A DNA stretch of 64,000 nt. It comes from Acholoe squamosa (taxonomy: Eukaryota; Annelida; Polychaeta; Phyllodocida; Polynoidae). The stretch is taken from NCBI GenBank assembly GCA_949317995.1, contig OX439039.1, forward strand, positions 13,383,282 through 13,447,281. The letters run 5' to 3'. Under the pieces are notes generated by a model. It saw only the letters and a list, made by a program, of their open reading frames with translations. It was not told the origin of the DNA and searched no databases. The first letter of the stretch is position 1. Every line of letters begins with the position of its first letter. Made by a program: the position numbers and the translations under genes. Below are positions 11,908 through 43,150 of this stretch, one piece after another.

Positions 11908-11915
11908 TGAGATTG
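11908..11915 (+). promoter_or_regulatory. TGAGATTG variant of intergenic motif
   Basis: TGAGATTG lies 43 bases after the ATPase stop and about 60 bases before ATG 11969, followed by A/T-rich sequence with aataaaatatat. It is a variant of the recurrent TGAGATAA element seen in other gaps of this cluster. Confidence 0.25.
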
Positions 11916-11968
11916 AATAAAATATATGAAAAAAATAAAAGTTTTTGTGTGAAAGTTGATTTATAAGA

Positions 11969-12439: not shown

Positions 12440-12443
12440 TATT

Positions 12444-13472: not shown

Positions 13473-13485
13473 AGATAAATTGTTT

Positions 13486-13494
13486 TGAGATAAA
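13486..13494 (+). promoter_or_regulatory. TGAGATAAA intergenic motif
   Basis: TGAGATAAA lies 14 bases after the stop of the 342-residue protein and 31 bases before ATG 13525, followed by an A-rich stretch. It is one of the better-placed copies of the recurrent motif. Confidence 0.35.
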
Positions 13495-13524
13495 TCAAAA
13501 AAAATAAATAAAAAATACATCAAA

Positions 13525-13965: not shown

Positions 13966-13977
13966 CATAAAATAACC

Positions 13978-13985
13978 TGAGATTA
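13978..13985 (+). promoter_or_regulatory. TGAGATTA motif before capsid gene
   Basis: TGAGATTA lies 13 bases after the previous stop and about 60 bases before the capsid ATG at 14044. It is a variant of the recurrent TGAGATAA element in this cluster. Confidence 0.28.
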
Positions 13986-14043
13986 CTGAAAAGAAGAGAA
14001 AAACAAACAAATATTTTTGAAGTTTGTTCATCACCTTAAAAAA

Positions 14044-15396: not shown

Positions 15397-15405
15397 TTCC
15401 TAAAA

Positions 15406-15945: not shown

Positions 15946-16032
15946 TGTATTATTTCTTTTTCATCTTGTCTTGGAAATTATTTGCCGATTTGTTGGAACT
16001 GATCATCATAAAAAGATATTTTTTTTAAAAAA

Positions 16033-16457
16033 ATGAGCGAACATAAAACAAAAGAAGGAAGCATGAAAAGTTTAAGCAAAATAAATAATTTGATTTCAAA
16101 CGGGAAAGTAGGAGCAGGAGGAATAGTTTTTACTCCCCTTCTTTACAGAAAGGAGATGAAATATTTTTGTCTTGTACAGAAAGCGGAAATATTTATCATA
16201 ACAATGAAAAAACTCAAACTTTCCTGTCTTGTTTTGTAACTAATGTAAATCACAGAAAAACATGGACATATCCTGTCATAGGATCTTCTGTTTCTAACCA
16301 TGACTTAAAATCTACTCAAATAAATGAAAACCGAGATATTAATAACATAATGTACGAAAAAAATAATCAATTACTAACTACCATTGCAAATCAAGAACAT
16401 TTGCCCGACTCAAATGTATTCACTGAAGAAACAAAAGATCCTGAGATACTCAAATAA
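16033..16457 (+). pseudogene. Unknown protein, frameshifted
   Basis: ATG 16033 starts one frame (MSEHKTKEGSMKSLSKINN) that becomes meaningless after about 16135. A second frame, open before 16167 and ending at 16457, continues with a composition like its neighbours (SCTESGNIYHNNEKTQTF, then Asn- and Glu-rich). Both fragments probably belong to one ~140-residue protein broken by a small indel near 16130-16145. I do not recognise the family. Its position after the protease suggests an accessory gene. Confidence 0.4.
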
Positions 16458-16533
16458 TTATAAGAATGAACATCTTTCTCATGTGAGACCTAAAAAAAAT
16501 ATATAAATTAAGATTATTTCTCAAGTCTTAATC

Positions 16534-16983
16534 ATGGATACAAAAGGGAACAATATGATTTTTGAAGTAAAGCGCAATGAAATACTTGAAAAAATATGCT
16601 TACATCAAGGCACTTATATATCTCTGTTAGAAGAAGAAAGACGTGAACACATTAATATCATAAAAGAGGAAGAAAAAAATAATCTCCATCTTACTTTACA
16701 ATTAAGAGAAGCACGAAATGAAAATATGAATTTAATGGCTCACAGGAAGGCATACAACTTAGCTAAAGCAGAGAGAATATATAACATCAGGAGAGGTTCT
16801 TATCCGTATGGTCGTACAGTAGCCGACGGTGATGACTCAGAAGAAGGCAGTAAAATTGTAGCAGACGGCGAAACTTGTGATGTGCCAGATTCTATGCCTT
16901 CTGATGTTTTAATGGAGACTTATAGGAATAAGCCAAACGAAGCTTTTCATTTAAATTCAGAAAAAAAACATGAAAGTGATTAA
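16534..16983 (+). CDS. Coiled-coil protein of unknown function
   Basis: A 149-residue ORF from ATG 16534. Residues ~30-80 (LLEEERREHINIIKEEEKNN, then LHLTLQLREARNENMNLMAH) have the charge pattern and heptad-like spacing of a coiled coil. The C-terminal half is acidic and probably disordered, with two short related segments, TVADGDD and IVADGET. I do not recognise the family. It is followed by a copy of the TGAGATAAG motif and another short coiled-coil gene. Confidence 0.5.
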   Translation: MDTKGNNMIFEVKRNEILEKICLHQGTYISLLEEERREHINIIKEEEKNNLHLTLQLREARNENMNLMAHRKAYNLAKAERIYNIRRGSYPYGRTVADGDDSEEGSKIVADGETCDVPDSMPSDVLMETYRNKPNEAFHLNSEKKHESD

Positions 16984-16999
16984 GAAATAAAAACATAGA

Positions 17000-17008
17000 T
17001 GAGATAAG
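17000..17008 (+). promoter_or_regulatory. TGAGATAAG intergenic motif
   Basis: TGAGATAAG lies 17 bases after the preceding stop and about 50 bases before ATG 17054. It matches the copies at 4588 and 9471 exactly over nine bases. Confidence 0.35.
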
Positions 17009-17053
17009 TGAACAAACAGACTTTATGTGAACATTGATCTGCGTCAAAGTAAC

Positions 17054-17302
17054 ATGAACAGTTATTCTGATTGGAAGCCTTCGCTAGAAGACGGGGTGTG
17101 TCCTGATTGCATACATAAGATAGAAACCCTTGAAGAAACAAGAAAAAGGCAACAAAACCAATTTCGCATTCTTAGAGCAGAGAGAAAAAAGAATCAAGAA
17201 ATAATAAAATCTTTAGGAAACAAAAATAATATTCTTGTGCAACGAATCACAGAAAAACAAGAGAAACTTTTGTCTGGCTTCATGAGCAGAACACTACGCT
17301 GA
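17054..17302 (+). CDS. Short CxxC plus coiled-coil protein
   Basis: An 82-residue ORF. The start is taken at ATG 17054 rather than the upstream in-frame GTG. It contains one CPDC knuckle near residue 17 and then a long charged helix (ETLEETRKRQQNQFRILRAE and following) that looks like a coiled coil. I do not recognise the family. Its stop is followed by one base and then the ATG of the next gene, suggesting co-transcription. Confidence 0.45.
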   Translation: MNSYSDWKPSLEDGVCPDCIHKIETLEETRKRQQNQFRILRAERKKNQEIIKSLGNKNNILVQRITEKQEKLLSGFMSRTLR

Positions 17303-17303
17303 T

Positions 17304-17951
17304 ATGGGAAAGTACACTTTTAAAATAAAAAAACTGTTGAAACACACAAACTGGGAAGACGATATAGCCATTAAATACATAAAATCTAAAAAAGAAAAAA
17401 TAACTTGCAACAATTCTTTCTTGAAACTTCTCTTGCAACATTTCGAACAGGTTTTAAGGCATAGACAAATGATATGTTTCACTTTTTACCTTTTAGAAAA
17501 CGTATTTGACAAAAAAGATAAAATGTGTTTAACAGAACGAATAATGGTGCATGACTTATCTAAGTTTTCAATGAGAGAAGCCATAGGTTACACCTTTAAG
17601 TTCCATACTAAAAATGGACCAAAAAATTCTCAAGAAAAAACAACTTGGGAAAATGCTTTATTTCATCACTATGAAAACAATGATCATCATCCTGAATATT
17701 ACAGAGAAGGAAATATGAGAAAATATGCTTTAATTGAAAGTGTGATAGACATGTTAGCTTGTCATGCAGAACGAGATCTGAAGCCAGAAGAAATAAATGT
17801 TCATGGTATTTTAGACGGAGATCTTTCTATCACCAATTTTTTGGACATAAATCCAATATACTTAGAAAGATATACTGAAGAAGATAAAGAAAAAGTGAAA
17901 GAATATCTGTCTTCGTGGAAAGATATTTTGTCTTGCAACTTATCTAAATAA
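17304..17951 (+). CDS. DUF5662/HD-like protein
   Basis: A 215-residue intact ORF from ATG 17304, one base after the previous stop. It has a His/Asp arrangement like a small HD-type metal-binding helical fold: HDLSKFS with His83 and Asp84, then ALFHHYENNDHHPEYY with His121, His122, His128 and His129. A later VIDMLACHAERD segment follows. The H-D-x-S-K-F-S plus HH...HH pattern is what I know from the DUF5662 family in bacteria and large DNA viruses, whose function is undefined; HD-type folds often act on nucleotides or phosphoesters. Proximity to two dUTPase-family genes makes a nucleotide-metabolism role plausible, but that is inference. Confidence 0.6.
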   Translation: MGKYTFKIKKLLKHTNWEDDIAIKYIKSKKEKITCNNSFLKLLLQHFEQVLRHRQMICFTFYLLENVFDKKDKMCLTERIMVHDLSKFSMREAIGYTFKFHTKNGPKNSQEKTTWENALFHHYENNDHHPEYYREGNMRKYALIESVIDMLACHAERDLKPEEINVHGILDGDLSITNFLDINPIYLERYTEEDKEKVKEYLSSWKDILSCNLSK

Positions 17952-17957
17952 AAAAAA

Positions 17958-18173
17958 ATGATTAAAAAGAAAAATATTGATAGTCTTAAAATATATAAAT
18001 TTTTTTTGTTTTTGTTTCTTTTGTTTTGTACTACATATGGATTCATGAGCGTTATATACTATTTCATATATGGATTAATAACTACTATAATCTTTTATCC
18101 TGTTTTCTTTTCTTCTATGTCATTATGTCTATTTATGCTTAGTATACATTTACCCGATATACCTTTTTTGTAA
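17958..18173 (+). CDS. Small double-pass membrane protein
   Basis: A 71-residue ORF six bases after the previous stop. A basic start (MIKKKNIDSLKIYK) precedes two strongly hydrophobic segments, FFLFLFLLFCTTYGF and a long IIFYPVFFSSMSLCLFML stretch, so it should span a membrane twice. I do not recognise it. Such short T/A-rich ORFs can arise by chance, but tight spacing and strand agree with a gene. Confidence 0.4.
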   Translation: MIKKKNIDSLKIYKFFLFLFLLFCTTYGFMSVIYYFIYGLITTIIFYPVFFSSMSLCLFMLSIHLPDIPFL

Positions 18174-18199
18174 CAGTCTGGAACTTAATTTTACTTCCT

Positions 18200-18208
18200 T
18201 GAGATAAA
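18200..18208 (+). promoter_or_regulatory. TGAGATAAA intergenic motif
   Basis: TGAGATAAA is followed by atataagcc, a TATA-like context, about 150 bases upstream of the death-domain gene at 18358. It is the most promoter-like copy of the recurrent motif. Confidence 0.38.
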
Positions 18209-18357
18209 ATATAAGCCTCATGTTAAGAGCATCTAAAGTTCTTCATAAGTACATATGTTGAGGAAGTACATGTGTTATTTAAATCATTGGTATATGTATT
18301 TTTGATTTATTTCTTTTCCTACTTTTGATTGTCACTCTAATCCTTTGAAGGTAAAAA

Positions 18358-18963
18358 ATGCCTTTACCTACTTATTACTTTCAAGATGATTTAGGATATT
18401 CAGATATCTTTCTTCAAAAAATCTCTGTATCGTTAGCACGTCAATGGATGACCTTAGGAGTATATCTTGGCATCCCTCATGCTAAACTTGAAAGCATGAA
18501 CAAGACGAAAACTCCAACTGCTATGGGCATAGAGATGCTGAATAAATGGTGGAGAGAAGTTCCTTACTACTTACGAACAGAAGAACTGATGAAAAGTTTA
18601 AAGGAAAACCACAGAATAGACTTGGTGGAATTAACTGAAAATTTCTTCAAAGAAAAAAAACTAGAAGAGTATGACGTGGAATCGACCTCCGTGCAAATGT
18701 ATTTCAGCTTATTGAGTGAAAAAATGTCAAGAGACTGGAAGGACATAGCTACATATCTACATATCACGTCTGACGAAAGAAGAACAATATCGTCCCAGCC
18801 CGAACAAGACATAGCTCAATTAACCTTCAATGTCTTAAAAATGTGGCAAAGATCTAAGTACAGTGCTACTCATCAACTGATGAAAGCAGTATACGACATG
18901 AAAAGAAATGATGTGCTAAACATGATATTCCTTGAATTCGATAAAAGAACAGGAACAAACTGA
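18358..18963 (+). CDS. Tandem death-domain protein
   Basis: A 201-residue intact ORF from ATG 18358 made of two six-helix-sized modules. Module 1 (residues ~18-95) has the death-domain signature: LARQWMTLGVYLGIPHAKL, then AMGIEMLNKWW, then an L-x5-RIDLVEL end. Module 2 (~111-192) repeats it more loosely: KMSRDWKDIATYLHI, then FNVLKMWQ, then LMKAVYDMKRNDVLNMIF. Death domains assemble apoptosis and innate-immune signalling platforms (FADD, MyD88, IRAK, caspase adaptors). A protein consisting only of two such modules, with no enzymatic part, could act as a decoy or adaptor. It was probably captured from a host; codon usage is A-rich like its viral neighbours. Fold assignment is from pattern; target and effect are inference. 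Confidence 0.72.
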   Translation: MPLPTYYFQDDLGYSDIFLQKISVSLARQWMTLGVYLGIPHAKLESMNKTKTPTAMGIEMLNKWWREVPYYLRTEELMKSLKENHRIDLVELTENFFKEKKLEEYDVESTSVQMYFSLLSEKMSRDWKDIATYLHITSDERRTISSQPEQDIAQLTFNVLKMWQRSKYSATHQLMKAVYDMKRNDVLNMIFLEFDKRTGTN

Positions 18964-19103
18964 AAATGAAAAACTGTCTTTACACATGTGACAATCAAAA
19001 TAAAATCATATAAAAAATTATTTCATTTTGTTTGTTTGGTTATTTACTTACTTGAGAATCATAACAATAGGCATCACATCATGTCATATAAAACTGAACG
19101 AAA

Positions 19104-19583
19104 ATGTCTGTTCTAAAATACAGTAAAATAGCAGGTTCCTTCTCTCCTACTAAAGAGGAAAATAACATAGGGATTCAAATGTACAGTTCATATGACAATA
19201 CTGTTCCTAATAATACAGCATGTACAATTACAACAGAAGTTAAACTTGCTATCCCTAAAGGTTATTATGGTATAATTTTACCTCTATGCAAATCAAGAAA
19301 ACATAACTTTGTGTTAATCAACCAAAAAATAATAGACGAAGATTACAGAGGGTATATTACCATTGTTTTATTTAACTTCGGAGAAGAAGACCTAAAAATA
19401 AAAAGTGGTGATGCTGTTGCACGACTTGTTTTACAAAAAATTTATCCTATAAAATTAGAAGAACGTTCTAAGCTTGAAAACACTGAAAAAGGTGAAAAAA
19501 TCTCTCAATTAGCTTACAGCAAAATATATGAAGAAATTTACAATGAAAATCTTAAATATTACAGCAAAGATCGTCTTCAATGA
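19104..19583 (+). CDS. dUTPase-family protein lacking catalytic motifs
   Basis: A 159-residue intact ORF that aligns by eye with the dUTPase encoded just downstream but lacks its active-site chemistry. Motif 1 reads IGIQMYSSYD, losing the conserved Asp. Motif 2 lacks the SG signature (LPLCKSRKHNF). Motif 3 is kept (IIDEDYRG, residues 76-83). Motif 4 has lost its Gln (GDAVAR). The glycine-rich motif 5 is absent. The beta-barrel core pattern persists, so it should still fold and perhaps form a trimer alone or with its neighbour. Catalytically dead dUTPase relatives act as signalling or regulatory proteins in some viruses and phages; here that is a hypothesis. Confidence 0.75.
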   Translation: MSVLKYSKIAGSFSPTKEENNIGIQMYSSYDNTVPNNTACTITTEVKLAIPKGYYGIILPLCKSRKHNFVLINQKIIDEDYRGYITIVLFNFGEEDLKIKSGDAVARLVLQKIYPIKLEERSKLENTEKGEKISQLAYSKIYEEIYNENLKYYSKDRLQ

Positions 19584-22536: not shown

Positions 22537-25500
22537 CTATGATGTGACTGACTCAAGCAAACAAAGCTTATCAATAGGTCTGACAAGTACATTTGTAGCA
22601 GTTTTGACCTCTGCAGATCGAACTAGACCATCTTTACCTGGGAAAGCTTTAACAACACGCCCAAGAGGCCAACTATTTCTAGCTAGATTCTCATCCATAA
22701 CTAATACAAGATCATCAGTTTGGATATTTCTCTTTGTGTCTAACCATTTTTGTCTTAGCTGCAGTGTAGGGAGATACTCTTTTACCCATCGTTTCCAGAA
22801 CTGGTCTGCCAGGTACTGTACATGCCTCCACCTACGACTGTACATGTCTTCCTTTCGGAAGGTTCCTGGGGGTGCTCTAAGCCCTACACCTAACTGAAGC
22901 AAGTCATTTGGGGTGAGAGGTTTCAAGTCCTTTGGATCATCTGACACTGGAGTGAGTGGTCTACCATTGACTATGTATTCAACCTCACAGAATACTGTGT
23001 TCAATCTCTCATCATCCAGGACTTGATCTTTTAGTATGGAGTTCAGTACCTTGCATACTGTCCTGATTTGCCTTTCCCAGACTCCACCCATGTGGGATGC
23101 AGCTGGCGGATTGAACTCCCACTTTATCTCTCTGATCAAGAGACTTTCCTGTGTCGTGTGGTCTTGATTCCACCTTTGAATTGACTCCCGCAACTCTTTA
23201 TTTCCTCCAACAAAGTTGGTTCCATTGTCTGACCTGATCTTTTCAGGTTTTCCTCTCCTAGAGATAAACCTGATTAGTGAGTTGATGAAAGAATCACCAT
23301 CCATTGAGCTGAGGATTTCTATATGTATTGCTCTGGTTGTTAAGCAGGTGAAAAGACAGCCATACCTCTTTTCTTGACTACGGCCCCTTTTTACATAAAA
23401 TGGGCCAAAACAGTCCACACCAGTGTAGGTGAAGGGAGGCTTGTGAGGTGTGACTCTGTCTGTTGGCAAGTCTGCCATCTTTTGAACTCCTAACTGTCCT
23501 CTCAGTTTCTTGCATATGATACATTTCTGCAATACCTTATTCACTAAGGGACGTCCTTGTGGTACAAGGCAACGTCTCACTTTGAACTCTTCAAGATGTG
23601 GCAGTTCTTCCAACCACCTTTTCCACTTCTTTACATTGTCAGGCTCCAGCTCATCATCCCAACTTTTATCTCTCTTGCATTCATCTTGAAATATCTTCTT
23701 TGCTTGGAGAATGAATGGGCATACAAAACCTAAAGGGTCATACACAGAACTGACCACTCTGAGAAGCCCTCTTCGGGTGAATATCACTTCTTTTTCCTTG
23801 ATTTTAATGCCAAATACATCTTCATGAGTGTCCCATTGAACACCTAGTGCCCTTTCCACTGGAAGTGCCTCTGAGTCCAGATCAAGATCTTTGACCTCCT
23901 TTGCTCTGTCCTCAGGGGAAACAGATTCTATGACCTCTTTGTTGTTAGAGATCCATTTGGTCAGCCGGAAACCTCCAAGGCTTAAAAGCTGACAAAGTTC
24001 ATCCAGCAATCTCTTTGCTTGATTTACTGTTGATACTGATTTGAGACAGTCATCAGCATAGAAGTTCTCCATTACAGTCTTGACAGTCTCTTCATCAAAC
24101 TCAGTCTTGTGGTCCTCAGCTGTGTGCTTAAGAGCAAAGCTTGCACAGCTAGGGCTCCATACTCCACCAAACAAGTGTACTGCCATTCTGTATGTCTCTG
24201 GGGGAAGATCAGGGTTGCCATCTTTCCACCACAGGAACCTTAGTACATCTCTGTGTTGTGGAGACACACGTACTTGATGAAACATGGCTTCTATGTCACC
24301 CATTATTGCTATGTGGTCTTCCCTGAATCTTAGCAACACTCCAATCAATTTGTTTGTCATATCAGGGCCTTGCAGCACTTGCTTGTTTAGTGATGTGCCA
24401 CAATATTCTGCTGCACAATCAAAGACAATCCGAAGCTTGCCTGGCTTATTTGGACTTGTGACAGAATGGTGAGGAATGTACCACTTGACACTGCTGTCAT
24501 CTTCATTTTCCTGGACAGGTTCTGCATATCCTTTCTGAACTAAATCCTCTATACCTTCCTTGTAAAGCTTATGAAGATTGGCATCCTTGGACAATCTTCT
24601 GCCAAGACTCTGTAAGCGTTTCTCTGCCATTTTCTTATTGTCTTGCAGATCTGGTGGTGTGACCTTAAAGGGTATGTCCATCTCATAATGGTTATCTTTT
24701 AGTTTGATGGACCCATTCCAGACATCCAGAACCCTTTTGTCATCTTGAGACATCTGTGGGAGGCTTCCAGCCAAAGTTTGAGCCACATCCAATTTCCAGA
24801 ACTGCTCAACTTGTGCTTCCAGACTTATATCTGGTCCCTGGTCAGCTTGAATGAAATTGCAAAGAGCAGATCCATCTTGGTTCTCACCTTGTAGAGGACC
24901 ATTGAGTGTCCAGCCTAGAATTGTTCTAGTGGCATAGGGTTCATTTTCCCTTCCTCTCCTCAATTCAAGGGGGATTAGAGCATCTGGGACATCCTGACCA
25001 ATAAGAAGAGTGACATCAGACTTCTCTTTATGGAATACTGTCAGATCCTTAAGATGATCCCATTTCTTTACATCTCCTGAAGATGGTATACTATCCCTTA
25101 GCTTTGGGAACCTTGTCAGGGCATAGACTCGTGGTAGTTGAACTACTCTTCTTTTCTTCTTTGGCCCTGTAGTTGCTGTGACTTCAAGAGAGATTTCAAG
25201 GCTATCCATATCTTTACCCTCACCAAGAGTTTCTAATGACAGGGAGGTCTTTTCTCCCTTTACTTCAAGTTGCTTTACCAAGTCCTTTGAACAGAAGGTT
25301 TTGTTGCTTCCTGGATCAAGCAGGGCATGGGTACGTATGTAGTTGCTCTGTCCCTTTCCTCTGACATACACTGAAACTATAGGTAGGGCGACCTTTGAGC
25401 TTACAATATCTGATTGCCCACAGGCATAACTTTTGGCTTCTACCTGCTTGTCTTGAGACTTCTGATCTTCCTTTTGTTCCTCATCCTTTGAGGACTCTGA

Positions 25501-27891
25501 CTTGGTGACCTTTGCTGGTTGATGAAGCAATGCAGAGTGTTTCCCTTTACACTCCTTTTCTTGACAGCCTTTTGGTCTTTTACACTCCTTAGAAGTGTGA
25601 TTACCAAAGTCAAGACAATTGAAACATAGTCTTTTCTCTTTCACAACTTCCCATCTCTTTTCCAGGGACATCTTCTTAAACTTGTCACATCCACTCACTC
25701 TGTGACCATCAGCATCACATATACGGCACTTGTATTCCTTGGGCTTGTTCTCTTTTTGGGTCTGATCAACAGATTTGGCTTTGACATCTTTGCTTTGGGT
25801 GTCAGTATCAGTCACACTAACATTAAAGCTTGATCCTTTCTTCTTGGACTGGGAAGGCTTACCCTTTGGTTCCTTGGTGACTGACCCTACATTCCCAAAT
25901 ACTGGGTCATTAGCCTCTCCAGCTACCATCTCAAGGAACTGGACAAATTCATCAAAGTTTGGGTATTCCCCAAATCTCTCACGGATCTTAAAGGCCTCCT
26001 TACGCCATCGAGTTTGGATATACAATGGCAGTCTTGTCAAGATCTTCACCATTCTATCTTGAGATTCTACCTCTTTGAGTTTATTCATAGCTCGAAGTGT
26101 TTCCAAGCAGCCCCTAACATCATCAGCAAAGTCCTGAAGAGCTTCACCATCATTTGGCTTCACTGCTGGGCCTTCAGTTATCTTTGAGACCCATGCCTTT
26201 GAGATCACAAAGTCATTACCAAACCTCTGTTTCAGCAGGCTTCTGGCCTTCTTATAGCCTTCTGACGGGGCCATTAATGCACATGGCTGTATTACCTTTG
26301 ACGCCTTTCCTGTGCAATACTCAAACAGTCTGTTCAGTTTATCACTAGCCTCAATATTGGCCTTATCTACACTAGCATCAAAGGCATTCATAAAGGTCCA
26401 GTACTTCATAGGATCCCCATCAAATTTCATCAGGCTAGTCTTTGGTAGACGAATAACATCTAGCATCTGACGTTGGATTATCTGGGATTCTAAGGCTGAC
26501 TGACTTTTCTCTTGGATTTCACCAAGAGTTTGATTTATACCCTTGAGGTTGGGGTCTGATGGCTGTTTCTCACTATTCCTATCTGAAGCTTGTGGTGATT
26601 TCACTAACTCCACAATCTGAGCTACTTGTCCAATGGTGAATGTCTCATCTGATCTTCTATCATTGTAACCTGTTATAGGTGATCCTGACCATTCAGGTGC
26701 AAAAGGGTTTTGGTAACCTGCTATAGGTGACCCTGACCACTCAGGTGCAAAAGGGTTGAGCTTTGATTTCCTCACTTCTGGTTCTTTCTCATTTGAACTA
26801 AAGGTGGTAGGTTTTCTGGCAGTACTAGTACCTATAGGACCCCCCGAATGATGAGAAACCCCATTGTCATTAGCTGAAGTGAATATACCCCCACACTGCA
26901 ACTTTACATCAGTATCATCTCTAGCAACAGCATTTTTAGACAAAGAAGCAAAGCTATTACCAAAATGTCTATCAGGAATATTTTGACTGACCTTTGATCC
27001 TTTATACACATAATCAGGATACTCAACAAACTTGGTCAGGGCATCTTCTTCAGCTGCTGCAGCCTCAAGTTCAAACTGCATTTGTAGTTGTTGACGGCGT
27101 AGTTCCATTTTCTTCCTTTCACGCTCCAGCCACAGCTCCTTCTGCCTGCGCTGATGTTCAGCCTCTTCCTGCTGACGTTCAGCCTCTTCCCGAATCTGTT
27201 CTTCTCGGCGGCGTGCCTCTGCTCGCTGCTGTTCTTCTCGACGGCGTGCCTCTGCTTGCTGCTCTTCAACATCTTGTTCTAGTTGTAGCTGGGTAAGTTC
27301 AAGCTCTTGTAACTCCCAGAGAGCTTTAGCCTTGACTTCAAGAGCAGCCCGTTTTGCAACTGCCTTAGCTCGTGTGCTTGATGCCCTTGATGCCCTGGAG
27401 GTGGCACCAGAGCCAACCTGAGACACACTGTCATGAGCATAAATACTGTCCTGCAGTCTCTGCTGTTCCAGGAGAATGTCATACTGTTTCTTTGTGTCAA
27501 CAAACCTTCCCTCCATTTGGGAATACACAGCCTCTTCAGTTGAGGCCCTATCAGGTTGAATGTCCACTACTAAATCCATGATCTCCTGATGCACTGAATA
27601 GAAGTTTGAGAATGCAGTTGCCATTTTCTCAACTGCAACTTGGAGTTCAGGCAGTCCAGCATCCTTGTTCATCAGATGAATCACCATATCAATTTTCTTA
27701 GTTAAATGTCCAGCATACCCACCTCTTGAGCGGCGCAGTGTCACCAGTTGTTCAGTCTTGACACTATGTGGATCCAACATCCTGCTTGATTCCCTGTGCC
27801 TGGAACCAATCTGTGACATGATGACTTGCTTAGTCCTTGCTGAGGATCCTTGAAGACTATTCTTTGTACCAAATGTGGTGGCCTTGGCCAA
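22537..27891 (-). CDS. BEL/Pao Gag-Pol polyprotein without RNase H
   Basis: A 1784-codon open frame. Order along the protein: a Gln/Glu/Arg-rich coiled coil; a DUF1759-type Gag region (LMKFDGDPMKYWTFMNAFD); CCHC-type knuckles (CRICDADGHRVSGC, CFNCLDFGNHTSKEC); an aspartic protease with ALLDPGSNKTF; a Pao reverse transcriptase with KLRIVFDCAAEY, GDIEAMFHQV and FYADDC; then an integrase with CIICKKLRG, GVDCFGP, RSDNGTNF and GGVWER, i.e. a full D,D,E set. Between the RT end (LEEFKVRRCL) and the integrase finger (GRPLVNKVL) the RNase H domain and the first His residues of the integrase finger are missing, at about 23540-23580. The first ATG lies 18 bases inside the LTR; another in-frame ATG is at 27819. 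Confidence 0.9.
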   Translation of the reverse strand: MAKATTFGTKNSLQGSSARTKQVIMSQIGSRHRESSRMLDPHSVKTEQLVTLRRSRGGYAGHLTKKIDMVIHLMNKDAGLPELQVAVEKMATAFSNFYSVHQEIMDLVVDIQPDRASTEEAVYSQMEGRFVDTKKQYDILLEQQRLQDSIYAHDSVSQVGSGATSRASRASSTRAKAVAKRAALEVKAKALWELQELELTQLQLEQDVEEQQAEARRREEQQRAEARRREEQIREEAERQQEEAEHQRRQKELWLERERKKMELRRQQLQMQFELEAAAAEEDALTKFVEYPDYVYKGSKVSQNIPDRHFGNSFASLSKNAVARDDTDVKLQCGGIFTSANDNGVSHHSGGPIGTSTARKPTTFSSNEKEPEVRKSKLNPFAPEWSGSPIAGYQNPFAPEWSGSPITGYNDRRSDETFTIGQVAQIVELVKSPQASDRNSEKQPSDPNLKGINQTLGEIQEKSQSALESQIIQRQMLDVIRLPKTSLMKFDGDPMKYWTFMNAFDASVDKANIEASDKLNRLFEYCTGKASKVIQPCALMAPSEGYKKARSLLKQRFGNDFVISKAWVSKITEGPAVKPNDGEALQDFADDVRGCLETLRAMNKLKEVESQDRMVKILTRLPLYIQTRWRKEAFKIRERFGEYPNFDEFVQFLEMVAGEANDPVFGNVGSVTKEPKGKPSQSKKKGSSFNVSVTDTDTQSKDVKAKSVDQTQKENKPKEYKCRICDADGHRVSGCDKFKKMSLEKRWEVVKEKRLCFNCLDFGNHTSKECKRPKGCQEKECKGKHSALLHQPAKVTKSESSKDEEQKEDQKSQDKQVEAKSYACGQSDIVSSKVALPIVSVYVRGKGQSNYIRTHALLDPGSNKTFCSKDLVKQLEVKGEKTSLSLETLGEGKDMDSLEISLEVTATTGPKKKRRVVQLPRVYALTRFPKLRDSIPSSGDVKKWDHLKDLTVFHKEKSDVTLLIGQDVPDALIPLELRRGRENEPYATRTILGWTLNGPLQGENQDGSALCNFIQADQGPDISLEAQVEQFWKLDVAQTLAGSLPQMSQDDKRVLDVWNGSIKLKDNHYEMDIPFKVTPPDLQDNKKMAEKRLQSLGRRLSKDANLHKLYKEGIEDLVQKGYAEPVQENEDDSSVKWYIPHHSVTSPNKPGKLRIVFDCAAEYCGTSLNKQVLQGPDMTNKLIGVLLRFREDHIAIMGDIEAMFHQVRVSPQHRDVLRFLWWKDGNPDLPPETYRMAVHLFGGVWSPSCASFALKHTAEDHKTEFDEETVKTVMENFYADDCLKSVSTVNQAKRLLDELCQLLSLGGFRLTKWISNNKEVIESVSPEDRAKEVKDLDLDSEALPVERALGVQWDTHEDVFGIKIKEKEVIFTRRGLLRVVSSVYDPLGFVCPFILQAKKIFQDECKRDKSWDDELEPDNVKKWKRWLEELPHLEEFKVRRCLVPQGRPLVNKVLQKCIICKKLRGQLGVQKMADLPTDRVTPHKPPFTYTGVDCFGPFYVKRGRSQEKRYGCLFTCLTTRAIHIEILSSMDGDSFINSLIRFISRRGKPEKIRSDNGTNFVGGNKELRESIQRWNQDHTTQESLLIREIKWEFNPPAASHMGGVWERQIRTVCKVLNSILKDQVLDDERLNTVFCEVEYIVNGRPLTPVSDDPKDLKPLTPNDLLQLGVGLRAPPGTFRKEDMYSRRWRHVQYLADQFWKRWVKEYLPTLQLRQKWLDTKRNIQTDDLVLVMDENLARNSWPLGRVVKAFPGKDGLVRSAEVKTATNVLVRPIDKLCLLESVTS

Positions 27892-34176: not shown

Positions 34177-36000
34177 CTACTAAGGATGAACCATAAATTC
34201 ATCCCGCCCGGGTAATGACCTTGTTTCATCTTTTAGAAAACCAGTATCCCATCATGTACATATATAACGAAGCCATTTCTTCAGATGTACACTGAGATAA
34301 TTGTTGTTATTCCACTTATCATGCAGTTTTATATAAGATTTAGCCCATATTTGCCAGTCGTTTTAATATGAGTTTCCAAATGATTTCAACATGATTGATA
34401 TCACCCCCGCCCCCCCCCCCCTTTACAAGCCTTTATGCGAACATAGGCCTATATATTTCGACTATTGCTATTGAGGATAAGTAGCACTCAGCCTATAAGA
34501 CGCACCCTGAATTTATGAATATCATCAGGAAATTGTGGCCAAAATATGAGATCTCTGGCATTCTGATTAAAAGTGGAGCCTTGTCGGGGGATTTGTGCCA
34601 AAATTTACTCTTGTTAGGGCGATTTTCGACTAGAAATAATTAAGACTCTTTAGGGGGAGTTTGATGAAAAAGTACCCTTGCCAACAGCACAAAGGTGCCA
34701 GCAAAATATAATGTCATGGGCGTGGAAAGCAGGGGGGACAGGGAGGACATGTCCCCCCACCCCACTTTTGGCCAACTCCTCAAAAGGTCAAAACTAAAAG
34801 GTCAAGCAAAGGGAGGTCAAAAATTGCAGAAACCCCCATGGTCCCACCCACTCTGAAACTGCTTCCCACGCCCCTGAATGAAGTGTCCCCTCCCCGGGAT
34901 TTTACACTCAAATTCCATCCTTGTTTATATGACATTTTCGACCAAAGACTCCATGTTTTAGAAAATTTGATTACCAAAAAGATATTTCAAAATTGACACA
35001 AGAATGTCCATTTGTTGTGATTTTTTTTTCGGAAATCCGCAAATTTCTTTTTAAAGAAAAAAAACAACAACAGATATTCCCCCCACCAGGGGCGGCGGAA
35101 CCGGGGGGGGGGCACGTCCCCCAACATAAAAGTTGGGGGGCCAGACTATGTTTTGCCCCCCCCCCCCAACATTTTGGGGAACTTTCTTCTTGTGCTCATA
35201 GATTGATGGTCAAATCTTTACAAATTATCAATAACAAACTCATTAAGCTTCTACAAAAAATTGCATGTATCCTTTGTGCTAAATATTGAGAAATATAGAT
35301 AGGTCTATTATGGGCTCAGAATGCACCGTTTTACTTCTAAAATTTCAAAATTTTCCTGGGAGTGTGCCCTCAGACCCCCTTCAGTATATTTCTTAACACA
35401 GTACAAACCTTGATAAGGTTATCTAGTAATAGCCGTATATTTGACCCCCACCCCCCCTCCCGTCACAGTTAGTTTAGGACCCCCCCCCCCCACAAAAAAA
35501 AAAAAAATAATAAAATGCCCCCCCCCCAACTTTGAATAAGTTCCGCCGCCCTTGCCCACAAAACATGGGCTATTTGCTCATAACTGCATTTTAAAGGTGC
35601 AGTTATCATGAACATAATAAAAGTGTGATAATATCTATTATGGATAACCTGCTGCATTCTCTAGACCATAAACTTTCATTTGGTACCAACTTGACACTTT
35701 TGCCTATTTTTTTTTGTACATTTTCTCAGAAAATTCTCTAAAAAAATCTCAAATGACGATTAATCTGACAAGAGCGGTGATGAGAAACATTTTTTTTTTT
35801 TTTTGGAGTGGCCCTATAGTATTCTTGCCAACCGCACACAGTCTGGCCCTGGGCAACACAGCACACATGTGTGAGATAGAAAAAAGAGAAGCCCCCCTCC
35901 GGAAAGTCTTCCCTCTCCAACAATGGAAAGGTCAAATTTATGAAAATATAATATCCCCCCTCCCCCACCCACCCACAACCCCACCCAACAAAATTGTGTT
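34177..36000. other. Repeat-rich region with long G and C runs
   Basis: No gene is supported. There are several long C or G homopolymers (for example near 34403, 35105, 35160 and 35480), remnants of the foldback family seen at 31881-32316, and A- or T-runs. A cacgtcccccaacataaaagttgggggg hairpin-like segment lies near 35112-35140. ORFs here are repeat by-products. Confidence 0.45.
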
Positions 36001-36145
36001 TCTTTGGCGCCGGGATGGACAGCCTCAGCTTGTTCTTGGCGGGAAAATCTTTGGCTGTCGATCGATCAGATAATCGATCCCATCACGGCGTCTGGCCCCT
36101 CAGCCGCCCCTCAGCCTCGTTCTGCCGTCCAGTACATACCACAAA

Positions 36146-36258
36146 ATGGCCGACACCATGGACAACCACGAGAGCGGACCCTACGATCCTTTTGCCGAAA
36201 CAATGCCCCAAGACAATAATCAAAATAACCAAAACACAGGGGAAGGATACACAGATAG
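36146..36258 (+). CDS. HNRNPM: hnRNP M-type gene, first coding exon
   Basis: ATG 36146 (context acaaaATGgcc) starts MADTMDNHESGPYDPF and continues through a Gln/Asn-rich stretch to ...GYTD plus two bases (AG) at a GTAAAG donor. The exon ends in phase 2. The next supported exon, at 47999, starts with one base, a, that completes an AGA Arg codon and leads into the RS-rich region. The phase match and the acidic N-terminus make this the likely first coding exon, separated by an 11.7-kb intron holding the non-LTR element. The link is inferred; a small exon in between is possible. Confidence 0.6.
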
Positions 36259-36751
36259 GTAAAGTTCATTCAGATTAAAAAAAATATATAAATGCTATCG
36301 ATGGCCGCTGAGTTAGAGGGCAACGCCGGTCGTGAAATGCACCACGCTCCACCGCCTACAGTGGGAAATCTGAACGGGGAGCGTGTCGGGAAGTGACGCT
36401 TGGCCTTGGGAGATTTTTCAGGAACTTGAGGAAGCTCAAAAAACTCCTGGAATTTCCTGTAAAAACGACCGTGCCTCGATACAAATTTAAGTCTGTCAAT
36501 TAGTTCAAACATTCGATATATGTGGGGAGCGATCAATGAGATTAACAGGCCTTATTTTGGGGGCATTTTCTTATGTAGCGTGGGACACGCGCGTTGTTTG
36601 CCGGTTTTGTCACTTTTGAAGTTGAAGTTGAACTCAGCTCGTCTCAGCCCCGTGGATCAGCTGTGAACTTTTCGTCGTTTTCAATTTCAGCTTTCCCCTG
36701 GGAGCTTTCCGTTGCAGTGTTGCATGATAAGCGGGCCCACCGAACAAGAAT

Positions 36752-36775
36752 AAATAATAATAATAATAATAATAT
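36752..36775. repeat. (taa)n microsatellite tail of non-LTR element
   Basis: An aataataataataat run directly beside the element's 3' end on the minus strand, as expected for CR1/L2/RTE-type short tandem tails. Confidence 0.7.
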
Positions 36776-36952
36776 ATTTTATTGACAGCAAAAAAGGGGT
36801 CATTACTGACCTATGTGTCATACATAAATGGTTCTTTACATATATAGCATGTATATATATATAATATGTCCACTACTCTACTCTACGACTAAGTCTAAGT
36901 CTTGCTATCACTCTCTTTCACTCTCTCTCCCTCTCACACACACATACTCACA

Positions 36953-39574
36953 CTAATTCTCTCTCTTTCTCCAACCCTCTCTCTCCTGGCACACATACCC
37001 ACTCTTTGTTACAGTGATGATTACATAAATATGATAGTATACACACTCTAGTTTCTCCACCTTATTTCCCTTAGTCAGGCCCCATACCTCGCAGCCATAG
37101 TCAAGGCAGGGTCTTATCTGGCTATCAAATAACTTGAGCGCCATCCTGGGATCTGGTTTTCCAATATGTTGATAGCAACATGAATATGATTGGTAGGCAG
37201 CTTTTCTACCCTTGTCATAAAGCTGATTGTATGCATCAAAGAAGATGTCTTTATGATTAGTTGTTAGTATAAACCCTAAGTACTTATAATTTTCTACTCT
37301 TACTAGCTGCGTGTCACCATACTTGAAGGTGTTAGTAATATCCTTCTTTTTGTGATTAAATATCATGATGTTTGACTTATTTATATTTACTAGTAGATGC
37401 CATTTTCTACAATACTGAAACAAATTGTTTAGCTGATTCTGCAGACCCCTAGCTGAGGTGGACATTATAACCAAGTCATCTGCATATAGCAGATAAGCAA
37501 GACTCATACCACAAACATCAATTCCAAGATTAGGGTCAAGATGTTCACCAATATCTAAGAGAAAAGCATTGAATAGTTTAGGACTAAGTACTCCACCTTG
37601 TAACACACCGTATAAACTATCTATGTTCTCACTTAATTCAGAGTTGACCCGTACCTTTGAGTGAGACTTCTTGTAAAGATTCATTAGAACTTTAAGTGCT
37701 TTCCCTTTTACCTGCCCAGATATCAACTTAAAGAATAATGCCTTCCTGTTAATATAATCAAAGGCCTTAGTGAAGTCAATAAAACAACAGAAGAGAGATT
37801 TACCTTCAGCCTGCACCATTCTCACAGCAGTATATAGTACAAATACATTATCGGTTGTCCTACCTTTATCTACGAACCCGTTCTGTAGAGGGTCGTTCTG
37901 ATTAAGCATATCGTTATTGAATTTCAGTCTTTTATTAATAATTATTTCAAAAAGTTTGCATGTACTGTTCATAATAGTAATTTTCCTATAGTTATCAGGA
38001 TTGCTTGTATCACCTTTCTTATGTAAGGGACTTATTATTCCTTCTGCCCATCTCTCTGGAAATTCAGCAGTGTCCCATATACAGTTAAACATAATTTGAA
38101 TCACCTCAGCAAAAACCTTCCCTCCTATTTCTTTCATATTATCATAATCAAAATAGTCAATATGTGGAGGAGTCTGCTGTTTCTTGAAGTATTCCACAAA
38201 CTCCGCTATTTTGATATCACATTGGGTCATTTTACCTTGTATTTGTTTCCACGACTTCCAGAACCTATTACTATTTTCTATCTCCAACATTCTTTCAAAC
38301 TCAAGACCCTTTCTTCTTTTATCACTTCTTTTACATTTCTGGACTAGTCTATTGTATTCCCTCTTAAGCATGTTATACATTTCTTTATTGAATTCAACCT
38401 TGAGGTCATAATTTTTGCCATAGTCATGCACATTCCTCTTTGCTAACTTGCACTCAGCATTAAACCACGGATTTTGAGGGAATTTAGTTGTTTTAGACCT
38501 TGAACTTTTTTGGACAGGGATTGCAGAGTCAAGAAGTGTGTAGTATGTATCAATTATTTCCTTACTGTTAAGGGTTGGGTCAGCAGCCAGAAATATTATA
38601 TGATCTCTAAGTTGGTTACACTCTTTGCCACTGAGATTCTCCTTGTATAATTCTTTTTTCGTCCCATTCCATTTATATGCCATATACTGTTCAGTTTTGT
38701 TTTGACTAGTATTAAAGTTAAGATTAGCACCTCTTAGTGTAAAGATCAATGGCTTGTGGTCAGAATCTGGCAATAGATCACCTATTTTCATATGTTTACA
38801 TATACCAACAGAGCTTGCCTTACATAATAGGTAATCAACCACACTCTGCCCATTTGCAGTGTAACATGTAAAGCCACCTGTGTTATCTACATCTCCTAAC
38901 CTGCCATTAAGTACTACTAGGTCTGTATCTTTACATAGTTGGATCAGCTCTTTGCCATTACTATTTACAGTTTGATCATCAGACTCTCTTACGGTTGGTA
39001 AGGTACCTGTGACTAGTGTAAGTGAGTCTGAACTAAGCTCATTAACAGATGAAGTGCGTGCATTTAAGTCACCACAGAACAGTAAATCAACATCTTTATG
39101 CTCCATTTCACCAATCTGCTCACATATAATGTCAAAGAAGTTATCATTTTCAGCTGTATATGTCGATCCTTCTGGTGGTATATATAAAGCACCTACCACC
39201 ACATCACATACAAAACCGAAGTATTTAGAGTTAAGATGGATCCATACAGAAAAGTCAGATACAGCTTCGAGTTGTATAGCACCTTCAATTTCTTTAGAGA
39301 TAAAAACCCCTAAACCACCAGAAGCCCTTCTGGCATTTGGATGTCTCTGCTTGCGGTTAACCTGGAAATATTTGTACCCTGGGATGCATGGTTGAAAATC
39401 CTTGTTTTTCCAAATTTCACTAAATATTATGATGTTGTGACTAGATATGATAGACTGAATATGAGGGTAGGTGAGTTTGTCCCCCAGACCATGGATGTTC
39501 CAGTATACTATTGTTATATTCTCGAGGGCATCATTGCTAAGGGTACTCCGCAGGGGGTATGCATGCCTCCTGTC
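36953..39574 (-). pseudogene. Non-LTR ORF2: AP endonuclease and reverse transcriptase
   Basis: The open frame starts directly after the ORF1 UAG with no Met before the endonuclease domain. The endonuclease opens ITIVYWNIHGLGDKL near 39520 and continues with SEIW, YIPP, LLFCGDLNART and a SDHKPL motif. The RT core has NYRKITIMNSTCKLFE, FIDFTKAFDYINR, GVLQGGVLSPKLFNAFL, YLLYADDLVIM near 37470-37500 and NYKYLGF. Between YFDYDN and MKEIGGKVFAE the early RT motifs are missing, and after KVEKLE the C-terminus degenerates into simple repeats. Activity of this copy is doubtful, although the frame is open. Confidence 0.85.
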
Positions 39575-41806
39575 CTATTTATTAGGGAAGGCAAGGTGTG
39601 CAAGCCGCTCACAGAGGGATTGTTTGGCATGCCAGGTGAGATGGATTTTGTCCTGTAAGGCGAGGTCACTATTGTTAATGAGGCAGCTCTTAGGGTCTTT
39701 TGTGAGACGATGTTTAATGTATGCCTCTAGGTGTGCTCGTACTGTGTCAAACTTGAAGTTGTTATATTTTGGAAGGCCAGATATCATGATATGTGCACTG
39801 GGGAAGGCTTGTCTCATATTCTCTAGAAGATGATCTATAGAATTGAAAAGCCTAGGTAGGGGTAGATGAGTGTGTACATCAATGTCCAAGGCATGAACAA
39901 CCACATATTTAGATTTGCTTTTCATGGTGCTGACTGCATCCGCAATGGCATCGATGTTGGCGCCTGGCATGACAACACTCGTTGCAGAGAGCCCTTTGCG
40001 TACTAGGAGGCCAGCCATGCCTCTTGCGTTACTATTGCCAATTATTAGGTAGTCTGGTGTTATCTCGTTTCTTACACTGGTGTCTTGATCATCTGATGCC
40101 ACGTCTCTTGATGCACCCTGACAGACATCTTGTCCTCTAGTGGGACCACTCTTGTTAGTCTGTGGGGATTCCTTTGTTACCATCTTCTGGATGTCCATCC
40201 AAAGTTGGCCCATCATATTCTCTCCCCGCCATTCCTCTGGGTGTATGCGGTTAGTATCATCCTCCTCATGCCCTGAACCCCAGAAGTCATCACATACCGC
40301 CTCAACCAGTATTGTGTCCTTGTATCTGGAGAGCATTGCCCTGACCTCAGGGCATTTGTCGACCTTTAGAAGGAGCAGCTCACGCATGATTGCCACTTTT
40401 CTGCGTTCCCATTCACCATTCTTGGAGATTGTATCTCCATGCCGTTTCATCCAGTATGGACTGGTTGAGTTCATGATACGCTCTGCTTTTTCCTCGTTGT
40501 CTGCATGGACGGCTTTAAGATGTTGGTACGCCTGCTCAACACAAAGGTAATCAACTCCCCTGTAGCGAAGAGTTACAGGATAGAAGTTTGACAATGGAGA
40601 ATGTTTACCCCGGAAGCAGAATACGGGTCTGCGCTTGTGGTTCTGTTTTGTTTTCATGTTGGTGGGTTTGCATGGTGATTTTGATGGTACTGTATGCACT
40701 TGAGCTTCTCTGCCTTTTTCATCTTTGGTTTCATTGGTCTGAGTCTTGGTCTTTACATCAGAAGCAGGTTCTGTACTGTTTGTGGCTCTGTCTTTTGACC
40801 TTGCCACCTTTTCCCATGCTCCACTGTCCTCTTTTCTTTCTTTGTCAGTGACAGTGTCTACCCCAGTCATAGACACTTTAAGTCGCTCCCACGCATCATT
40901 GTCTTCCTTCCTGTCTTGACTGCTTACTAACTCATCTGATTTGACGTCGTAGGGGATTTCCCCTTGTATGGATATGGTGGCACTGGCTTGACCAGTTACT
41001 GTCTGGAAGGTGACAAGGTCTTTATTAGCCTTATTAAGTGCCTGCTCTGTTAGAGTCAGTGCCAGTGTCAGGGCCTCCACCCTGTCTTCTAATTCTAATA
41101 TGATCTTGTCTTTTGCATCTATCTGATTCTTTGCCGTTAGAAGGTCCCCAAGGACTATTCCAAGCATGTCTTTCGGAGCACCAAGCCGCGCACTCGTCGG
41201 GCTGACTGATATCGCTGTTTGACTGCCTGTGTCCCTAGACTTGTTCTGTGTTAGAGCGAGTATCTCATCCCTGAGTTTAGTAATATCATTTGCGTTCTGG
41301 TCAATTTGGTCTTGTAGTTGTGATATGTCCTGTGATGTATCAGCCATGAAAGTTGTGTTACTGACAACTTCCGGTAAGCATGATGCAGGATTGCCTGTCT
41401 GGGTGTGAAATAATTCCGACATGCTTGCATCAGGGTTGGGTTCTGTTGTGTTTTGCATAGAGAGCGTGAAATTTAGGTTCAAACTGCTGTCCTCAGTCCT
41501 ATTTACTGCTCCATCTGCTGTAGGTGTGGATGTCGCTGTGGGCAGACTATCCGGTATTGTTGTCGCATTGTTGGTTGCTGACAGGCCGTGTTCCAGGATG
41601 GTTAAATCCATGGTTGAGTCCATGTATACTGAGTTGTCAGGACTAATTTCCAGCTTGGCTTCACACTTGTGTTTAGCCTTTTGGAATGGTTTGTGTACAA
41701 AACTAGGAGTGTCATAAACATAGATTGAGTCTTGTGTTGATTTAATGTTTCTCTGTGGCCTCTCTCTCCTTGCCTCATTCACATCAGGGGTCTTGGCCTT
41801 CCCCAT
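39575..41806 (-). CDS. Non-LTR ORF1: coiled coil, NADAR, SGNH esterase
   Basis: The first ATG is at 41806 (taaaATGggg); the frame is open further upstream but only to a GTG. The 743-residue protein has a Ser/Thr-rich N-terminus, then a coiled coil (LQDQIDQNANDITKLRDEIL and beyond). At about residues 393-540 lies a NADAR (YbiA-like) domain: FRGKHSPLSNFYPVTL, VEQAYQHLKAVHADNEEKAE, a WMKRHGDTI loop and GENMMGQLWMDIQK. The C-terminal ~160 residues (582 on) form an SGNH/GDSL hydrolase-like domain, LIIGNSNARGMAGL with VVHALDIDVHTH, as seen in CR1/L2 ORF1 proteins. NADAR proteins act on NAD-derived ADP-ribose linkages; finding one in a retrotransposon ORF1 is striking. It ends at TAG 39577-39575. 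Confidence 0.88.
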   Translation of the reverse strand: MGKAKTPDVNEARRERPQRNIKSTQDSIYVYDTPSFVHKPFQKAKHKCEAKLEISPDNSVYMDSTMDLTILEHGLSATNNATTIPDSLPTATSTPTADGAVNRTEDSSLNLNFTLSMQNTTEPNPDASMSELFHTQTGNPASCLPEVVSNTTFMADTSQDISQLQDQIDQNANDITKLRDEILALTQNKSRDTGSQTAISVSPTSARLGAPKDMLGIVLGDLLTAKNQIDAKDKIILELEDRVEALTLALTLTEQALNKANKDLVTFQTVTGQASATISIQGEIPYDVKSDELVSSQDRKEDNDAWERLKVSMTGVDTVTDKERKEDSGAWEKVARSKDRATNSTEPASDVKTKTQTNETKDEKGREAQVHTVPSKSPCKPTNMKTKQNHKRRPVFCFRGKHSPLSNFYPVTLRYRGVDYLCVEQAYQHLKAVHADNEEKAERIMNSTSPYWMKRHGDTISKNGEWERRKVAIMRELLLLKVDKCPEVRAMLSRYKDTILVEAVCDDFWGSGHEEDDTNRIHPEEWRGENMMGQLWMDIQKMVTKESPQTNKSGPTRGQDVCQGASRDVASDDQDTSVRNEITPDYLIIGNSNARGMAGLLVRKGLSATSVVMPGANIDAIADAVSTMKSKSKYVVVHALDIDVHTHLPLPRLFNSIDHLLENMRQAFPSAHIMISGLPKYNNFKFDTVRAHLEAYIKHRLTKDPKSCLINNSDLALQDKIHLTWHAKQSLCERLAHLAFPNK

Positions 41807-41895
41807 TTTATAGTGTATCGTCACAGTTGGATCGAAAGTTTTCTTTGATTTCTGTCTGTCACTCACTATACTACTCTTGTAGGTTTTGCCAAAAT

Positions 41896-43150
41896 ACCTC
41901 TATTATCACCCACATAAAATACTATGTACCGTCCTTAATACTGAGCAGAATTTAACAAACAAGCATTCAAAATGACGGCAGAATTCCCCTCGTTCAGAAT
42001 ATCAAGTCAGAAATATTGAGGGATGTTTAGTTTGTCAGCTACGGGCGTTTTTATATGCGGTACCGTGTATCTGCGTCCATTTTGCGTGCTTGTCCAGGAT
42101 ATAAAAATAAAACAACACACATTCCTATACTAAACAGGCTGCTTGAGAATGTTCAGTGATGCTGCACCTACCACTATTTGTTCTACAAACCCTAAATATT
42201 GGCCCAGAGATGGAATTGTGTACTTCTGACAGTTCTGTGTTGTTAAAACAGGAACATTGTCATTTACGTGCATGAAAATTTTTTGCGCCTCTGGCCTAGG
42301 CTAGAGACTCTTTGAGTACCGTAGCGATGACAGCCAAAAATCAAGACCTCAACAGAACTTCACAACTGCATCAACTGAAAGGGCTTAATATTTGTTAGGC
42401 ACTTCAACAAAAAAATTAAACTGAATACAGAAATATCCCTGTGACCGAATTTGATTGAGGCCATTGAGATATTTTTAAATCTTTTGGAATTTTGTTTATA
42501 TCTTGTATAGAAACAGAAATACCGGGCAAATAGTACCAAAAGTATTGAGGCAAGTACCATTATAGTAATGGTAGAAAAGGTGTTATAATATCTGTGATGT
42601 GAGTTCAGCTGCACAGTGGGCCCAGTATGTGGCAGCATGTACTGGTGGCAATTTTCTGTGTTTTCTCTTGATATCTAAGGGCCTGGAAAGTAATGTTCTA
42701 GTGATCAGATCTAAATAATATTTAGTTTTCTATGATATTTAGAATATTAGCTTTCAGTAGATATCTTTAATTCAGTTCCAAATTGATTCTAAGTAGTAGT
42801 AAAATGCTAATAAAAAATTCATAACATGGCGGCTCTACAAACAGCCATTTCTTTTCTATTTCATATTTTGGTCCTCTCAAAAGTATCATTGGGCAAAGTC
42901 ATAAAGGGATGAAGTTATACATGCTGCTAGTTTATTATGCACTTTAACTGTGTCTGATATTAGTTTTTTGGTGTCTCCAGTGGTTAATATGTTTTTTAAA
43001 GCTTCAATATTACCTTCATATTAAAGTCATTGTAAAATGCTTAATAATTGGAATTTTTTCTCCCAGATTTTGCTGGTGGGTACTTTGATATCTAAACTTT
43101 AAGGATAGCTATTAAAATACAAGTAAAATACCCTAATAGAACCCTAAATT
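41896..43150. other. hnRNP M intron 1, no supported feature
   Basis: A/T-rich intronic sequence. It may hold the 5' UTR of the non-LTR element up to about 42.0 kb. I see no gene or clear repeat. Confidence 0.4.

Follow-up and report, generated by a model that had tools for sequence, protein, structure and literature searches.

A NADAR domain retained in ORF1 of a young LINE lineage of Acholoe squamosa

The window analysed here is a 64,000-nucleotide stretch of the genome of the polychaete Acholoe squamosa (C5:13383282-13447281; 1.48 Gb in 63 contigs were searched). It contains a LINE copy whose first open reading frame (ORF1) encodes an N-terminal region, a NADAR domain and an SGNH domain, in that order (Table 1). 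ORF2 has Pfam matches to RVT_1 and Exo_endo_phos, which identify the element as a non-LTR retrotransposon, and a search for LTRs (12-base seed) revealed no repeat of 20 bases or more within 36000-43000. The blastn matches of other genomic copies stop at 42085 (L019) and 42100 (L022) at the 5' end and at 36743-36762 in 13 copies at the 3' end, where a simple-repeat ATT/TTA tail of variable length is found; the tail is absent from L024 and L027 among the 16 copies inspected. The likely start of ORF1 is the ATG at 41806, and the part common to the two subfamilies described below begins at 41815. Relative to the other copies, the one in the window has two deletions, of ∼174 bp at 38125/38126 and ∼821 bp at 37045, and its ORF2 is therefore broken. 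A repeat at 42106-42244, just upstream of the LINE 5' end, recurs close to the 5' ends of the tandem pair in L024/L025, where its orientation with respect to the LINE is inverted; its location beside LINE 5' ends could possibly reflect a target preference.

Table 1. Features of the LINE copy, in positions of the window.
Feature	Position	Strand	Basis or remark
LINE copy, approximate ends	36743..42100	-	blastn against other genomic copies
ORF1, 743 aa, TAG at end	39575..41806	-	ORF finder's version reaches 41866
Probable coiled coil of ORF1	41012..41341	-	weak Pfam matches, all below cut-off
NADAR domain	40184..40606	-	PF08719 profile
NADAR motif VEQAYQH (E43 equivalent; K50 equivalent 2 residues further)	40520..40540	-	alignments
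NADAR loop VEAVCDD (E125 and D130 equivalents, followed by W133 equivalent)	40286..40306	-	profile alignment to 8bau
SGNH-hydrolase-fold domain at ORF1 C-terminus, GNS and DxxH motifs	39578..40069	-	
In-frame TAG separating ORF1 and ORF2	39575..39577	-	
ORF2 (endonuclease and reverse transcriptase), in the frame of ORF1 after the TAG, broken in this copy	36953..39574	-	

Further mobile elements are located in the window. Positions 5600-19580 of the forward strand contain an insertion that is Polinton/adintovirus-like by its gene set, which includes a packaging-ATPase-like protein (Pox_A32), an adenovirus-type protease (Peptidase_C5), a Death-domain protein, a dUTPase and DUF5662; by eye, a large ORF at 5600 resembles a PolB in two pieces and 14017-15396 a capsid protein, both without Pfam support. 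The Death domain in such an element may merit a look. Positions 22537-27891 of the reverse strand encode a BEL/Pao-type LTR polyprotein of 1784 aa with Peptidase_A17, DUF1759 and DUF5641, together with rve and RVT_1 matches below cut-off.

The original prediction, made from the DNA alone, placed a full-looking NADAR domain in ORF1 between the coiled coil and the SGNH esterase, and profile searches bear out a complete NADAR between the N-terminal region and the SGNH domain. ORF1 scores 95.3 bits against PF08719 (curated cut-off 35.1 bits) and matches TIGR02464 above its curated cut-off as well, and the domain has the NADAR fold, common to the NADAR of P. nicotianae (8bau) and E. coli YbiA (2b3w). 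The ligand pocket was mapped by profile alignment to 8bau and from the residue list given in the available text of PMC11543638. Residues E43, K50, W89, E125, D130 and W133 of 8bau correspond to E424, K431, W466, E502, D506 and W509 of the 743-residue ORF1 protein, and R93 to K470. All six are retained in the 18 window-family rows (17 copies and the window), none of which has a stop codon in the domain; E424 and K431 are thus invariant in the family at the two positions reported as largely conserved across the superfamily. The E125 position distinguishes subfamilies, with glutamate in YbiA, aspartate in BC4488 and histidine in the phage type, and the window family has the YbiA-type glutamate (E502). 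Unlike 8bau and 2b3w, the window NADAR is fused into an ORF1, has an E125-D130 loop shorter by one residue, and has an aspartate (D458) at the position of R79. The latter contacts the pyrophosphate in 8bau; such a contact, known from a single structure, does not define the superfamily. Because of the aspartate and the shorter loop, the affinity or the substrate of the domain may be altered in the window family. No transferase family that could be the partner in a DarT-NADAR pair occurs among the Pfam matches of ORF1 and ORF2.

The same positions were compared in 34 LINE NADAR rows, 20 from this genome and 14 from proteins found elsewhere. The equivalents of E43 and W89 are present in all 34, that of E125 in 32 and that of D130 in 30, while the K50 equivalent is lysine in 24 (lysine or arginine in 30). 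The W133 equivalent is retained in 24; nine of the 20 rows of the genome, and P0133, have F, M, Y or H at this position, and binding without catalysis is possible, to judge from the alignment, in the rows with these replacements. The E125-D130 loop is one residue shorter than that of the host genes in all 20 rows of the genome and is not shortened in P0131, P0133 and P0134. Taken together, the data favour a NADAR that has been kept in the ORF1 protein and is probably competent.

C-terminal to NADAR, the serine (GNS) and histidine (DxxH) of the SGNH domain are present in all 17 rows with data and the aspartate of DxxH in 16 of them. The GDS motif of the esterase reads GNS in the window family. 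The VIA-align matches listed are mostly SGNH folds, and no absence is concluded from them. The window ORF1 has the SGNH-hydrolase fold and the catalytic Ser and His of type IV (esterase) ORF1s, of which ZfL2-1 is an example; reports of such ORF1s concern CR1, RTEX and Penelope elements (PMC3905857, PMC4120745, as far as their available text goes). In these, too, an SGNH esterase fold comes after an N-terminal region; the window ORF1 differs in having NADAR inserted between the two.

For the comparison of copies, 20 loci were taken as 10-kb stretches. Seventeen contain copies of the window family (L009-L019, L021-L025 and L027; L024 and L025 overlap, with two tandem copies) and the remaining three (L020, L026 and L028) belong to other NADAR-LINE families. 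Identity to the window is 97.3-99.8% for main matches of at least 700 bases, except in the older L019 (94-96%), and L009 has a second, inverted fragment at 84% identity. The copies show the hallmarks of LINEs, with 5' truncation at differing points and an ATT/TTA tail of differing length, and fall into two subfamilies with distinct 5' leaders. An open ORF2 of 1167 codons is found in at least 12 copies, and both frames are open in at least two; the ORF2 search scored 52 of 13011 candidates, so that the count of open ORF2s is a lower bound, and its query was matched in one piece by the window alone. Hence the lineage is recently active and has recently spread. The 10 kb of one copy (L022) includes a second, very diverged NADAR on the opposite strand (+ strand frame 2).

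The window, all 15 family copies inspected and four of four diverged loci have the sequence AAATAGGAC at the ORF1-ORF2 junction; three of the diverged loci (L042-L044) are close to one another. ORF2 continues in frame in the window family, L037 and L044; in L043 the frame soon meets stops and the L042 locus ends at this point. The window family and L037 have no in-frame ATG ahead of the endonuclease, so that readthrough or reinitiation would be needed for ORF2, and L043 and L044 have an in-frame Met. Readthrough of the UAG is no more than a candidate mechanism: the TAG and the common frame are conserved, but none of three sequences gave a clear RNA-folding signal at the junction (z −0.39, +1.34 and −1.64) and a Met is available in L043 and L044. 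Among the abstracts listed by a literature search, none concerned LINEs with such a junction.

The original prediction had also called for dN/dS on active-site residues; counts of replacement and silent changes reveal constraint on the domain. The two subfamilies were contrasted using majority bases (≥75%, at least four copies) from eight rows each, with L010 and L019 left out, and 68 fixed differences were found in ORF1 and ORF2 together. NADAR has one replacement and four silent differences, a small count of five; the corresponding figures are 1/0 for the linker, 2/4 for SGNH, 4/10 for the N-terminal part, 8/18 for the whole of ORF1 and 13/29 for ORF2. The per-site ratio of replacement to silent changes is ∼0.07 for NADAR and ∼0.12 for ORF2. 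In comparisons between families, most pairs show saturation at silent sites, and replacement differences amount to 0.07-0.43 of sites; the ratios that can be computed are 0.11-0.12 for window/L037 and L037/L038 and 0.26 for window/L019, the last from a very small number of changes. The pair of host genes (L001 and L002) gives 0.15. NADAR is therefore under purifying selection in the window family.

A genome search with PF08719, in which 150 of 3224 candidates were scored, gave at least 150 loci, all over the cut-off. Of 37 that were inspected, 34 are in LINEs, one (L004) is counted separately as a LINE on the sole ground that its NADAR is sister to a LINE NADAR, and two are stand-alone and host-like. 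LINE status was assigned from an adjacent ORF2 or from ORF1 architecture judged by eye, and is weakest for three loci: L003 and L006 were assigned on architecture only, and L005 on an ORF2 fragment of 33 residues together with a NADAR that hardly differs from the one in L003. The stand-alone genes, L001 and L002, have EASPxDxxWGIG loops and are up to 66-67% identical to other proteins, for example one of Ridgeia piscesae; an 86-residue LINE ORF2 fragment is located ∼1.1 kb from L001.

Nine ORF2s of NADAR-LINEs were compared with one another, and reverse transcriptases were also compared with those of L1 and R2 in the PDB. Seven (L020, L028, L032, L034, L035, L036 and L026) group together (98/99), and the window family and L029 stand apart from them, each on a long branch; pairwise scores blur these groups, with 135 bits for window family/L035 and 129 bits for the weakest pair within the seven. 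Matches to human L1 ORF2p are 254 bits for L029, 95 for the window family and 37 for L035. L029, which is L1-like, may be of the Tx1 kind, Tx1 being a relative of L1. For the window family the CR1/L2-like kinship implied in the original prediction is no more than a candidate on these references (L1 and R2), and a placement in RTE/RTEX is a lead only, since esterase ORF1s are reported there too (PMC3905857, available text). NADAR thus occurs in three ORF2 groups of this genome, and its recurrence in related elements, which the original prediction had set against a one-off capture of a host exon, speaks against such a capture.

In the other NADAR-LINE ORF1s the domain is at or near the C-terminus, following what looks by eye like the RRM/CTD part of an L1-type ORF1, for which no Pfam support was obtained. 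In several NADAR-LINEs, ORF1 and ORF2 are separated by additional ORFs of SGNH-like appearance, with one or two in each of L020, L028, L030 and L032. Of five such ORFs tested, two gave Lipase_GDSL_2 matches that miss the curated cut-off (3.7e-05 and 0.0025) and a third gave one at 0.048, and no Pfam match was found for that of L030. NADAR and SGNH may therefore recur together as separate ORFs in these four elements, as far as sequence resemblance goes. The fifth, in L034 (2866-3585), has a match to NarE only (E 0.0011, 19.7 bits against a cut-off of 27). NarE is an ADP-ribosyltransferase, and this match is probably due to chance, though odd next to NADAR.

A protein search with ORF1 residues 400-763 retrieved ten proteins, the first of which (P0001) covers 97% of the query part at 42% identity. 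In six (P0001-P0005 and P0010) an SGNH-like region comes after NADAR, as shown by precomputed Pfam matches in P0004 and P0005 and judged by eye in the other four, and P0006-P0009 resemble L1-type ORF1. Four more L1-type proteins came from an alignment search in which 8000 candidates were scored, giving 14 that are termed LINE ORF1 by resemblance alone. A branch with support of 99/97 separates 33 LINE NADAR rows from 43 cellular rows (the two host genes, 25 rows from named animals or other eukaryotes, and 16 more selected among 120 listed proteins), in a tree with unsettled bootstrap and some long branches from which L022b (very long) and P0004 (length filter) were left out. When 45 of 79 usable IMG/VR domains were added, the LINE rows of a quick tree were a grade and not a single side, flanked by the viral-contig rows (98) and the cellular rows (99), with the L1-type rows nearer the cellular ones. 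A single origin of the LINE NADARs is supported by the first tree and not by the grade in the second, and given the long branches one capture is only a possibility. Since the host genes group with the cellular rows, apart from the LINE rows, a recent capture from the host is disfavoured on this phylogeny; LINEs may have acquired NADAR in one or several old captures.

Tx1 LINEs of Crassostrea gigas have been noted to carry NADAR in their ORF1 proteins, and a role in RNA processing was guessed at (PMC12477816, available text). NADAR in a LINE ORF1 as such is therefore already in print; the original prediction had named the countering of host ADP-ribosylation as a mechanism it did not know to be described for non-LTR elements. 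The open-access literature searched yielded nothing on a NADAR-SGNH ORF1, on the spread of NADAR over reverse transcriptase groups or on selection on it, and as far as that literature goes these are what is new here. The oyster elements share NADAR within an invertebrate LINE ORF1, whereas the window family has SGNH after NADAR and a reverse transcriptase far from that of human L1 (by the scores above). The same source reports NADAR in Gypsy elements of Ectocarpus, where it is likewise conserved across families of a retroelement; these differ in being LTR elements with NADAR at the N-terminus of Pol, the nearest matches being almost all bacterial according to its authors. Polyproteins of animal RNA viruses with Macro/NADAR (PMC9503650, available text) resemble the window family, by description, in placing an ADP-ribose-handling domain in an element with an RNA stage, and they are viruses and not LINEs. 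TRAS LINEs of Lepidoptera (PMC5563155, available text) have likewise acquired and retained an enzyme domain, in their case a helicase; it is a different domain, lies in ORF2 and is said to derive from RNA viruses.

We propose that NADAR is a working part of the ORF1 protein and not a passenger. The ORF1 protein would coat the RNA of the element and the cDNA made at the target, a host ADP-ribosyltransferase would mark this template, and NADAR would hydrolyse ADP-ribose from the bases, above all guanine, keeping the template readable for reverse transcription. Guanine-linked ADP-ribose is favoured because it is what the NADARs tested in print act on and because the clam enzyme CARP-1 attaches ADP-ribose to N2 of guanine in DNA (PMC11209040, available text); as an argument for a host enzyme in Acholoe the clam is only a lead. 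According to the available text of PMC11543638 and PMC11125620, the tested NADARs, including a eukaryotic one without DarT association, remove guanine-linked and not thymine-linked ADP-ribose, and for NADAR of animal RNA viruses the proposed target is macromolecules that the host has ADP-ribosylated (PMC9503650). In favour of the proposal are the profile scores and fold, the kept pocket residues, the constraint, the closely similar copies and the three ORF2 groups; against it weigh the aspartate at R79, the shorter loop, the W133 replacements and the small number of differences within NADAR. This explanation, in which ORF1 NADAR would de-ADP-ribosylate the LINE's own nucleic acid against a host enzyme, is the one we prefer, tentatively and with somewhat less than even confidence.

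A less likely reading, with an appreciable chance of being right, is that NADAR serves the ribonucleoprotein as a module that binds nucleic acid or ADP-ribose and helps ORF1 hold RNA or a partner, with no need for catalysis, in parallel with roles that other ORF1 domains are thought to have. Such a role would accommodate the loss of the R79 equivalent in the window family, the replacement of W133 in 10 of the 34 LINE rows and the 4 of 34 in which K50 is neither K nor R, and nematode SNA-3, with three NADAR domains, works in trans-splicing by a biochemistry described as unknown (PMC9303266, available text). However, the retention of E43, W89 and E125 across the LINE rows, and of all six key residues throughout the window family, seems to exceed what binding by itself would require. 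Only slightly less likely than this is the removal of ADP-ribose from proteins or small molecules, for example of host-PARP marks on the ORF1 or ORF2 protein or the nicked target, or of ADP-ribose signals; the same profile and fold evidence would serve it, whereas the activities given in the available text of PMC11543638 and PMC11125620 are on guanine bases and riboflavin intermediates, none on protein. A passenger role, in which an active LINE picked up a host exon accidentally and has merely transported it, is very improbable: LINEs can capture sequence and the genome has two host-like NADAR genes, but the LINE NADARs split from the cellular ones and, with the IMG/VR rows added, fall outside both sets, replacement changes are as rare relative to silent ones in NADAR as in ORF2, and the domain is in three ORF2 groups. 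A clean-up of riboflavin intermediates for the benefit of the host, the activity after which the matched TIGR02464 is named, is scarcely credible, as that name spans a wide family and an ORF1 of a mobile element with endonuclease and reverse transcriptase offers no metabolic setting.

Beyond the preferred reading, in which ORF1 NADAR would act on the LINE's own nucleic acid, it is conceivable, though less likely than not, that LINEs have long carried a domain that de-ADP-ribosylates nucleic acid, moved between reverse transcriptase lineages by ORF1 shuffling, as a counter-defence against host enzymes that ADP-ribosylate guanine in retroelement RNA or cDNA. If so, invertebrates would use base ADP-ribosylation to defend themselves against transposons, and the LINE would betray this defence, of which the literature searched gave no description. 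The repertoire of ORF1 is in any case widened by an ADP-ribose module fused to an esterase. Few jobs are known for animal NADAR proteins, that of SNA-3 being one, and a young LINE under selection for NADAR, with the domain in three ORF2 groups, makes it testable what is ADP-ribosylated, by whom, and whether retrotransposition is blocked.
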